Virus record (IMG/VR): IMGVR_UViG_3300030107_001068
Coordinates: 1-23,413 of that record
Source of the DNA: a virus
Strand: one strand, 5' to 3'
Length of the DNA: 23,413 bases
Below, piece by piece: positions 5,599 through 23,413 of the stretch. Below the pieces are notes generated by a model, which did no database searches, was not told the DNA's origin, and saw only the letters and a list, made by a program, of their open reading frames with translations. The translations under genes and the position numbers were made by a program. The number at the start of each line of letters is the position of its first letter. Positions within the stretch are counted from its first letter, which is position 1.

Positions 5599-5993
5599 TT
5601 CTTACCTCCCTTATTCAGTTTTGTTCTAATAAAATCTAGTTGTTGCGGAGATAAAATCCTCAAAGCCTGCTTTGCTTTTTCATTACTATAACCATAGTAT
5701 TGCTTAACAAGATCAAGATCATCTATCTTTTGTTTCTTACCCCAAGGAGAAAATCTCTTTCGGGGTCTCACGATATTTATAAGAAAATCATATTGTAATT
5801 TCCTATCAAGTCCTGAATAACGATTCATCTCGTTAGCATATGCTAGTGTATCAAGATGATGTGATAAACATTTGTTTATAACATACGCTGGATAATTCTT
5901 TTCCCAAGAGGGATCTTCATCCATTAAGTAATCTTTATTAAGATTAATAGAATTTAAATAATCTTTAAGAGGGTAGCGATCATCATAAGCCAT
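5595..5993 (-). CDS. gp62: Clamp loader small subunit gp62
   Basis: gp62 pairs with gp44 to form the sliding-clamp loader of T4-type replisomes; it has no ATPase site. The start chosen is ATG at 5993 (MAYDDRYPLKDYLNSINLNK), giving 132 residues. The frame is open further upstream to 6104, but that extension lies inside the preceding gene and reads as random sequence. Family features seen are the N-terminal PLKDYLNSIN, the central YPAYVINKCLSHHLDT-YANEMNRY, the LQYDFLINIVRPRKRFS block, and a C-terminal YYGYSNEKAKQALRIL helix. The start overlaps the end of the 62-residue gene by 11 bases; AGGTG lies upstream. The cyanophage form is much shorter than T4 gp62 (187 residues). The gene sits directly before regA as in T4. 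Confidence 0.9.
   Translation of the reverse strand: MAYDDRYPLKDYLNSINLNKDYLMDEDPSWEKNYPAYVINKCLSHHLDTLAYANEMNRYSGLDRKLQYDFLINIVRPRKRFSPWGKKQKIDDLDLVKQYYGYSNEKAKQALRILSPQQLDFIRTKLNKGGKK
5774..5781 (-). promoter_or_regulatory. Exact T4 late-promoter octamer inside gp62
   Basis: The minus strand reads TATAAATA, identical to the T4 late -10 octamer, about 180 bases upstream of regA and inside gp62 codons. It may be chance in A+T-rich sequence; late transcription of regA and the following membrane-protein genes would be a consequence if real. Confidence 0.22.
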
Positions 5994-7269: not shown

Positions 7270-7457
7270 TTCTTTAACTCTCTATATTTAATACGAATCT
7301 GATCTTTCAACCATGCAGACCTACTGGTAGCACAGTCATCCTTTACTAATTGATCTAGACATTCTATCAATGGTCCTTCATTTTGTCCGAAAGAAAGATT
7401 GATGATATTGCCACCCTTACGATCTTTTAAGTCGGCGACACTTTTTCTAGCTGGCAT
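7266..7457 (-). CDS. Small ribbon-helix-helix-like protein
   Basis: The 63-residue product has a basic N-terminus (MPARKSVADLKDRKGG), a strand INLSF, and two predicted helices, PLIECLDQLVKD and SRSAWLKDQIRIKYREL. This beta-alpha-alpha order and size fit the ribbon-helix-helix (CopG/Arc) DNA-binding fold, which acts as a dimer. The fold call is by pattern only. The start ATG at 7457 lies 11 bases inside pyrE. It could be a phage transcription factor regulating its own operon, which is inference. Confidence 0.7.
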   Translation of the reverse strand: MPARKSVADLKDRKGGNIINLSFGQNEGPLIECLDQLVKDDCATSRSAWLKDQIRIKYRELKK

Positions 7458-8013
7458 TGATGATTTCCTCCAAGGTGTAAATGCTGTAAAGTTCTAGTCC
7501 TTCTGATTCCATTGCTTCATCTATCTCCACATCTTCCTGTCTATCGACAATAGAAACAACACGTTCTACACAATATCCTGCATCACGCAGTTTATGTGCT
7601 GCCTTAATAGCAGACGCACCTGTAGTAACTACATCCTCTAACACTGTAACACGAGAACCTTTTTCTGGCAAGGGGCCTTCAATCCATGCTCCTGTACCAT
7701 GACCTTTTGGTTCTTTACGAACAATCAAACCATTGATTGTTTGCTCATCTAATGCTGCTGCCATAGCAACACCACTAACAAGGGGATCAGCACCAAGAGT
7801 AAGTCCTCCTACTGCTACTGATGCCTCTTCAATAAAGTCAAGCATCATAAAACTGACATAACACAATCCTCTACAATGTAGAGTAAGTGGTTTACAGTTA
7901 ATATAATGAGGACTCATTATACCTGAAGAAAGTTTATATTCACCTTTACGGTAACAATCTTTCTTCAGCATCCGCAATACTTCTTCACGCATATCATCAA
8001 TATCGTATATCAT
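7447..8013 (-). CDS. pyrE: Orotate phosphoribosyltransferase
   Basis: The product is 188 residues and would convert orotate and PRPP to orotidine 5'-monophosphate, the fifth step of pyrimidine synthesis. It has the N-terminal substrate loop YKLSSGIMSPHYINCKPL (about 27-44), which matches the F-x-L-x-SG-x-x-S-x-x-Y-I-D signature, and the PRPP-binding motif VLEDVVTTGAS (about 123-133). RKEPKGHGTGAWIEG is the flexible catalytic loop with the conserved Lys and His. All key regions are present and the length is near that of bacterial PyrE (about 200). The ATG at 8013 overlaps the upstream stop by one base. It sits in the clamp-loader operon, which suggests it boosts UMP supply during phage DNA synthesis. 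Confidence 0.94.
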   Translation of the reverse strand: MIYDIDDMREEVLRMLKKDCYRKGEYKLSSGIMSPHYINCKPLTLHCRGLCYVSFMMLDFIEEASVAVGGLTLGADPLVSGVAMAAALDEQTINGLIVRKEPKGHGTGAWIEGPLPEKGSRVTVLEDVVTTGASAIKAAHKLRDAGYCVERVVSIVDRQEDVEIDEAMESEGLELYSIYTLEEIINAS

Positions 8014-22693: not shown

Positions 22694-22776
22694 CTCTAGG
22701 GGATGGAGTCGAACCACCAAGACTAAAAGTCAACACGGAAACAGCGTGTCGCGTTTACCAGTTTCGCCACCCTAGA
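22694..22776 (-). tRNA. Atypical tRNA, anticodon GUU (Asn), long variable arm
   Basis: The minus strand folds into a full cloverleaf. The acceptor stem is TCTAGGG with CCCTAGA (seven pairs), followed by G as discriminator base; CCA is not encoded. The D stem is GCG/CGC around AAACTGGTAAA. The anticodon stem is ACACG/CGTGT (five pairs) with loop CTGTTTC, giving anticodon GTT (Asn). The T arm is GGTGG/CCATC with loop TTCGACT. The variable region is 14 bases and forms a four-pair arm, GACT/AGTC. Such an arm is typical for Leu, Ser and Tyr tRNAs, not Asn, and the D-arm resembles tRNA-Leu. Base 37 is U, where a purine is nearly always found. It begins eight bases after the stop of a synthetase-like gene. 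Confidence 0.82.
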
Positions 22777-22780
22777 TTGA

Positions 22781-22797
22781 GGCACTATGAAAGTGCC
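22781..22797. repeat. Hairpin across the synthetase-like stop codon
   Basis: Perfect six-base arms GGCACT (22781-22786) and AGTGCC (22792-22797) surround a five-base loop. It covers the stop codon of the synthetase-like gene and lies four bases ahead of the tRNA. No U-run follows, so a role in message end formation or tRNA processing is more likely than termination. Confidence 0.55.
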
Positions 22798-23413
22798 GAG
22801 ATTATGCGAGTCATACCAATGCCTCCACCTGATCTTGGGAAGAAATCGAATGAGAGGAAGTCTTCTAATTCTTTCTCTACTCTACTTCTACCAAATAGAT
22901 CAATAATCAGTTGAGCATATTGTCCATCTGATATAGTGTAAAAGGTATTACGCATTTGATCTTTGTCGGTACTGCGTTCTGCAGAACCTATTGTCTCCAT
23001 CCCATTGAGAATAACATCAATCTTTTTACTTGTGCCATCATCATTACGTGCCATGTTCCAGAATGGTGATGTCCACTCAGGGAAGTCAGTAATCATACCA
23101 CGACCAATAGATTCTTCATGGTCATGATCAAGTTCTTTAGTGTTAAACTGATTAGCCCAATCATTATATTTCTTAATCTTATTCTGTTCGTCTAATGGTA
23201 AACCCAACCAACGACACAATTCAATCTCCATATCTTTAAGTTCATCAACACCACCCTTCATCTCGAACTCAAACATGGGGAAGATAGTTTCATGTCTACC
23301 TGCTACAGGATTGGGTTCTGCTCTATATGATGTAGAGACACAGAAAAACCCCTCTGCTTTGGGGTTAGAAAGTAATTCATATTCAAGCCACATCTGACCT
23401 GTCTGAGGTAGTG
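22785..23413 (-). CDS. Class II aminoacyl-tRNA synthetase-like protein, 3' part (runs off window)
   Basis: The gene enters from the right edge; a Met at 23393 is internal, since the frame continues upstream without a stop (LPQTGQMWLEYELL). The visible 209 or so residues contain the class II catalytic core. Motif 2 is SYRAEPNPVAGRHETIFPMF (R-x-E, then R-H), then FEMKG. ETIGSAERS follows, and motif 3 is GGGIGMTRI with its conserved Arg. This matches the Asp/Asn/Lys synthetase group and the small stand-alone 'amino acid-tRNA ligase-related' proteins, which lack an anticodon-binding domain; asparagine synthetase A is also related. The sequence ends right after motif 3. Substrate cannot be told; Asn is suggested only by the tRNA that follows. 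Confidence 0.82.
   Translation of the reverse strand, partial: LPQTGQMWLEYELLSNPKAEGFFCVSTSYRAEPNPVAGRHETIFPMFEFEMKGGVDELKDMEIELCRWLGLPLDEQNKIKKYNDWANQFNTKELDHDHEESIGRGMITDFPEWTSPFWNMARNDDGTSKKIDVILNGMETIGSAERSTDKDQMRNTFYTISDGQYAQLIIDLFGRSRVEKELEDFLSFDFFPRSGGGIGMTRIISALS

Follow-up and report, generated by a model that had tools for sequence, protein, structure and literature searches.

A phage tRNA with asparagine identity elements beside an AsnRS-like gene: a possible link to pyrimidine synthesis

INTRODUCTION

AsnRS reads the anticodon GUU and the discriminator base G73, and GatCAB reads the U1-A72 pair; together, GUU, G73, and U1-A72 make up the bacterial tRNA-Asn set. Aminoacyl-tRNAs can also serve as biosynthetic substrates, as in the conversion of Glu-tRNA to 5-aminolevulinate by HemA, and dedicated nonribosomal tRNAs exist, such as the peptidoglycan tRNA-Gly of S. 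aureus.

Here, we describe a tRNA gene in a 23,413-nucleotide stretch of viral DNA (IMG/VR record IMGVR_UViG_3300030107_001068, hereafter the window) that directly follows the gene of an AsnRS-like enzyme. This tRNA and its counterparts in other phages are referred to as companion tRNAs, and no description of the enzyme-tRNA pair was found in the literature searched. Companion tRNAs share GUU, G73, and U1-A72 with bacterial tRNA-Asn(GUU), and the loop CUGUUAA itself occurs in some relatives; unlike tRNA-Asn, they mostly have a Leu-type body with a long variable arm and a pyrimidine at position 37, and 11% of them have a base other than U at position 33. With bacterial tRNA-Leu (class II), they have in common the D arm, the long variable arm, and the overall body (our model R1 matches tRNA-Leu next best), but they carry GUU and G73 in place of a Leu anticodon and A73. 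The neighboring enzyme shares its fold, motifs 2 and 3, and an AsnRS-type TGQxxLE with the class IIb enzymes AsnRS and AspRS and with the archaeal AsnRS-related asparagine synthetase, whereas its length (264-268 aa), its lack of an anticodon-binding domain, and its low identity to them (<22%) set it apart.

By analogy with the Glu-tRNA used by HemA and the S. aureus tRNA-Gly, we propose a charged tRNA that would act outside translation while its translation features drift; it differs from both in that it is phage-borne and in that its partner is an AsnRS-like enzyme tied to pyrimidine synthesis. Like the CarAB-PyrB-PyrC route to dihydroorotate, the proposed pathway would feed PyrD, PyrE, and PyrF, but PyrB is absent, and CarB and PyrC are mostly absent, where the bacterial homologue of the enzyme occurs.

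RESULTS

A tRNA gene of mixed identity

ARAGORN found a single tRNA in the window (positions 22694-22776, minus strand, 83 nt, anticodon GUU), and the same span was matched by Rfam RF00005 (45.9 bits; E = 5e-9 for a search of 251 bases). That this is a real tRNA gene is confirmed. Its sequence reads TCTAGGG TG GCG AAACTGGTAAA CGC G ACACG CTGTTTC CGTGT T GACT TTT AGTC TT GGTGG TTCGACT CCATC CCCTAGA G, with an acceptor stem of 7 bp closed by U1-A72, a discriminator G, and no encoded CCA. The anticodon loop CTGTTTC supplies G34, U35, U36, and U37, and the four-pair variable arm reported in the initial annotation is present. The features of the gene are as follows.

22694-22776, minus strand: companion tRNA with a Leu-type class II body and the Asn identity set (ARAGORN, Rfam, 149 distinct relatives, covariation)
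22776 and 22695, minus strand: U1 and A72 of the acceptor stem; 22694, minus strand: G73
22742-22740, minus strand: GUU anticodon
22739, minus strand: U37
22732-22719, minus strand: variable arm

The initial annotation had described a mixed identity, i.e., a Leu-type long-arm body combined with an Asn anticodon, G73, and U37, and this description was borne out. The best matches in bacterial genomes for a covariance model of the phage tRNA family were ordinary tRNA-Leu genes, which supports the Leu-like body.

The Asn identity set is fixed in companion tRNAs

Our first sample comprised 80 relatives of the synthetase-like gene from IMG/VR, and nearly all of those whose contig reaches far enough have a tRNA just 3' of that gene. 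A wider sample was scanned for tRNAs without imposing an anticodon; earlier scans, which had imposed GTTT and were therefore uninformative on anticodon invariance, were left out of that count. In the wider sample, the companion tRNA lies directly downstream of the same PF00152 'tRNA ligase' gene in 215 loci (149 distinct sequences), and the genes flanking the pair differ from phage to phage. The pair also occurs in the isolates P-SSM7, P-SSM2, and P-SSM5, where it is annotated as 'tRNA ligase' and tRNA-Asn. The P-SSM2 record (L083, NC_006883.2) places its sole tRNA at 164094-164179, within a coding gene; the actual tRNA lies at about 162083-162168, directly after 'tRNA ligase', so that the record is offset by ~2 kb.

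In an alignment of 31 relatives, standard pairs filled 98.2% of the base-pair cells, compared with 41-52% in slid controls, and two-sided changes were found at 20 of the 25 pairs, i.e., the cloverleaf has the compensatory base pairs of a functional tRNA. Given this covariation, chance or decay of the tRNA is excluded. With 149 distinct relatives intact, the proposal of a decayed tRNA is refuted; together with the covariation, these relatives also dispose of a private mutation or sequencing error. A normal Leu anticodon was looked for in related phages, and none was found.

The anticodon is GUU in 144 of the 149 distinct tRNAs, and in all 149 after offset correction in five with loops of type TTGTTGG. 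G73 (144/144) and U1-A72 (143/144) are similarly constant, and thus the set used to charge tRNA-Asn is found across companion tRNAs. They depart from the class I body, the uniform U33, and the purine 37 of tRNA-Asn, and the Leu anticodon and A73 of tRNA-Leu are replaced by GUU and G73 throughout. Since this bacterial Asn set is the unvarying part of the tRNA, charging with an unexpected amino acid, as initially envisaged, is disfavored. Mischarging by LeuRS or SerRS was likewise considered and appears disfavored, in that G73 would argue against Leu and the invariant set corresponds to Asn.

The variable region spans 5-39 nt overall and mostly 13-39 nt; since one group of relatives has a variable loop of 5-7 nt, a long arm is usual but dispensable. 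In L260, L266, L271, L274, L275, L296, and L308, the companion tRNAs measure 74-76 nt and combine a short variable loop with the same GUU, U1, and G73; they represent a class I-like version of the companion tRNA. In one phage group (L161, L260, L265, L274, L281, and L296), a small ORF of the 'IIPIYKNGxGIHELxxELQRQ' type lies between the enzyme and tRNA genes.

Positions 33 and 37 are relaxed

At position 33, companion tRNAs have U in 128, C in 13, A in 2, and G in 1 (n = 144; non-U, 16/144), and at position 37 they have U in 126, A in 11, G in 4, and C in 3 (n = 144; pyrimidine, 129/144; purine, 15/144). Invariance of U37, which the first 80 loci had suggested, was dropped, as the wider sample has A, G, or C in 18 of 144. 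A control set of 85 other tRNA genes from the same loci has U33 and a purine at position 37 in every case (85/85 each), so that companion and control tRNAs differ at position 33 (p = 7e-4) and position 37 (p = 1e-47), with the reservation that related sequences are not independent. Judged from these alignments, the recognition elements for charging enzymes do not vary, and the elements of the ribosomal decoding site are relaxed. This comparison indicates that selection maintains Asn charging, not decoding. Some ribosomal use may persist, since U33 is retained in 89% of companion tRNAs.

The partner enzyme is an AsnRS-like catalytic core

The enzyme gene runs past the end of the window, which leaves its N-terminal part outside, and its stop codon lies 8 nt upstream of the tRNA.

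22785-23413, minus strand: AsnRS-like catalytic-core protein ('tRNA ligase', T4-GC 194, phrog_29758), C-terminal 208 aa (PF00152)

The phrog_29758 assignment comes from a PHROG match on relatives of the enzyme. Full-length relatives (264-268 aa) consist of the catalytic core only. The best sequence match of the enzyme profile is AsnRS, and the predicted structure of a full-length relative (L012, pLDDT 92.8) best matched AsnRS 1x54 with Asn-adenylate, followed by other AsnRS and AspRS structures. The TGQMWLE segment, which includes E68, lines up with AsnRS, as do motif 2 and R203; across 54 sequences, neither E68 nor R203 varies. Together with PF00152, these matches describe a class II core with an Asn pocket, and the enzyme is, on sequence and predicted structure, an AsnRS-like catalytic core. 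The anticodon-binding domain of AsnRS is missing, and the curated NCBIfam AsnRS and AspRS models score the enzyme far below their cut-offs (TIGR00457, 18 bits versus a cut-off of 342.6); therefore, we do not class it as an AsnRS.

Bacterial homologues occur with pyrimidine genes and without PyrB

A scan of GTDB genomes revealed relatives of the enzyme (50-68% identity) in Bacteroidota, Patescibacteria, Pasteurella atlantica, Rickettsiales-like symbionts, and others. Many of these homologues adjoin pyrD, pyrE, or pyrF (Pfam/NCBIfam assignments), although those of Patescibacteria mostly do not, so the clustering holds in many but not all lineages. That the family of the neighboring gene occurs in pyrimidine gene clusters was absent from the initial annotation and changes the question. 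In Pasteurella atlantica, the cluster (L126, 4959-6892 and upstream) has the order pyrD (divergent)-homologue-pyrF-PRTase, and a U-rich leader with a terminator hairpin, resembling the pyrBI attenuator, precedes the homologue.

PyrB was absent from all nine homologue-carrying bacterial genomes tested. More specifically, PyrB scored over the cut-off in 0 of 7 genomes with the homologue versus 14 of 14 controls, and within the Saprospiraceae, where 3 of 120 genomes have the homologue, in 0 of 3 with it versus 19 of 20 without it (p = 0.002). PyrC models exceeded the cut-off in 0 of 7 homologue genomes (with one sub-cut-off match, in Aureispira) and CarB in 1 of 7 (1 of 3 in the Saprospiraceae set), figures to be read with the caveat that MAGs are incomplete and that Pasteurellaceae, for example, may lack genes for other reasons. 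Given these absences, the bacterial homologue is probably a replacement for PyrB, perhaps also for PyrC, and in many cases for CarAB. A separate AsnRS is present in several of the homologue-carrying genomes.

No GUU long-arm tRNA was seen adjoining the bacterial or huge-phage homologues, and a pattern scan of nine bacterial and huge-phage genomes yielded no credible unlinked GUU long-arm tRNA; the matches inspected were tRNA-Leu only, plus one non-tRNA pattern match. Since these homologues have no adjacent GUU long-arm tRNA, the reaction of the enzyme need not require a special tRNA. The huge phages in question have genomes of 735 kb (L084) and 484 kb (L085) and enzymes of 45-50% identity with no adjacent tRNA. 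Upstream of the L084 homologue, a tRNA-like fold fell short of significance (z = -1.4).

In the tree, the tRNA-bearing enzymes form one marine phage clade within the bacterial family, and three members of that clade have no tRNA. Most simply read, the tree has the tRNA partner acquired in a single event, by an enzyme that would already have been in its metabolic setting. Approximately 13 phage-type loci with sufficient flank have no tRNA, e.g., L186 and L187 (89% identity to L087). One clade member without a tRNA, L093, has a hairpin (TCCGGGG-TC-CCCCGGA-GCCA, about 5866-5886) just 3' of the gene. This hairpin corresponds to the acceptor stem of a tRNA, complete with G73 and CCA, from which the body is missing; it would be a deletion remnant or an assembly effect.

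Pyrimidine genes accompany the pair in phages

The window also contains a pyrimidine gene that co-occurs with the pair in cyanophage isolates.

7447-8013, minus strand: pyrE, orotate phosphoribosyltransferase (TIGR00336, over the cut-off)

In other phages, clusters of the order pyrD-enzyme-tRNA-PRTase (L227 and L239) and pyrF-PRTase-enzyme-tRNA (L294) were found. Neither the L227 nor the L294 PRTase reaches a Pfam family alone, and both were identified through their similarity to PRTases of the bacterial clusters. In addition, pyrD lies beside the pair in L087, L091, and L180, and pyrE in L012, L038, L039, and L044. Overall, pyr genes were near the pair in a minority of phage loci (26 matches over 156 loci, many of them on short contigs).

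Among isolates designated Prochlorococcus phage, Synechococcus phage, or cyanophage (at least 437 cyanophage records searchable), this PyrE is confined to P-SSM2, P-SSM5, and P-SSM7, and so is the enzyme, a co-occurrence that amounts to about two independent lineages. Since the two genes are far apart in P-SSM2 and P-SSM7, it goes beyond mere linkage. Overall, the link of the pair to the pyrimidine pathway is well supported.

DISCUSSION

We propose that the tRNA is a dedicated Asn-accepting tRNA belonging to the upstream AsnRS-like enzyme and that the two function in phage pyrimidine synthesis instead of decoding, a reading to which we assign a probability of roughly 50%. Among the options raised in the initial annotation, a nontranslational role is the best supported. 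More tentatively, the aminoacyl-tRNA itself may be a substrate of nucleotide synthesis, in that a private Asn-tRNA and the AsnRS-like enzyme would build dihydroorotate without CarAB, PyrB, and PyrC; this specific version is possible but doubtful.

We infer the reaction chemistry and the exact role of the tRNA as follows. The companion tRNA would be charged with Asn by the host AsnRS, by the host AspRS and GatCAB, or by the phage enzyme, and would hand its Asn to the AsnRS-like enzyme. The enzyme might then spend ATP on closing an Asn-derived ring, in which Asn and a bicarbonate-derived carbonyl would give dihydroorotate, a step that is chemically reasonable, and PyrD, PyrE, and PyrF would convert the product to UMP. 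Holding the alpha-carboxylate as a tRNA ester could steer ATP away from that carboxylate, and the weak decoding features at positions 33 and 37 would prevent the charged tRNA from being used by the ribosome. The weak points of this explanation are the bacterial homologues, which have no dedicated tRNA, and the persistence of U33 in most companion tRNAs.

A phage AsnRS/tRNA-Asn pair for translation, in which a truncated synthetase charges an extra Asn isoacceptor reading AAC and AAU in phage mRNA, would fit the intact Asn identity set, the AsnRS-like pocket of the enzyme, and the Asn codons of the 14 window ORFs (5.3%; AAU, 159; AAC, 71). We consider it unlikely, given that the pyrimidine-37 (129/144) and non-U33 (16/144) forms of companion tRNAs have no counterpart in the neighboring tRNAs (0/85 and 0/85) and that the enzyme's family is at home in pyrimidine clusters rather than in translation. 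Moreover, the companion tRNA is the sole tRNA gene found in the 252-kb P-SSM2 genome (PMC3037559; also our own genome scan), and it duplicates the standard Asn anticodon. A passenger gene without function, or a decoy for an anticodon nuclease, is far less probable still. Phages carry tRNAs for many reasons, and the long arm and loop are unusual, but a passenger would not have remained next to a single gene at 215 loci while 20 of its 25 base pairs underwent compensatory change, and a decoy need not retain G73 or U1-A72 or adjoin an AsnRS-like pyrimidine gene.

Two further explanations accommodate the bacterial homologues, which manage without a dedicated tRNA. The tRNA could be a ligand or sensor that binds the AsnRS-like enzyme and tunes its activity by Asn charging without being a substrate, and the acceptor end, where U1-A72 and G73 are invariant, could be bound even by an enzyme that has no anticodon domain. 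The invariant GUU, however, implies that the anticodon is read, be it by the ribosome or by a charging enzyme of some kind, and no regulatory precedent was found, which leaves this role quite improbable. Alternatively, the enzyme may need free Asn only, and the tRNA may provide it by hydrolysis in hosts whose sole route to Asn is tRNA-bound (AspRS and GatCAB). The constancy of U1-A72 (143/144), the known GatCAB mark, and of G73 (144/144) would suit such a supply, which we regard as at least as improbable as the sensor.

If our proposal of a dedicated tRNA serving pyrimidine synthesis is true, abundant ocean phages would retain a tRNA for metabolism rather than translation, and this tRNA would be tied to a pyrimidine route that, in scattered bacteria and phages, takes the place of the first enzymes known from textbooks.
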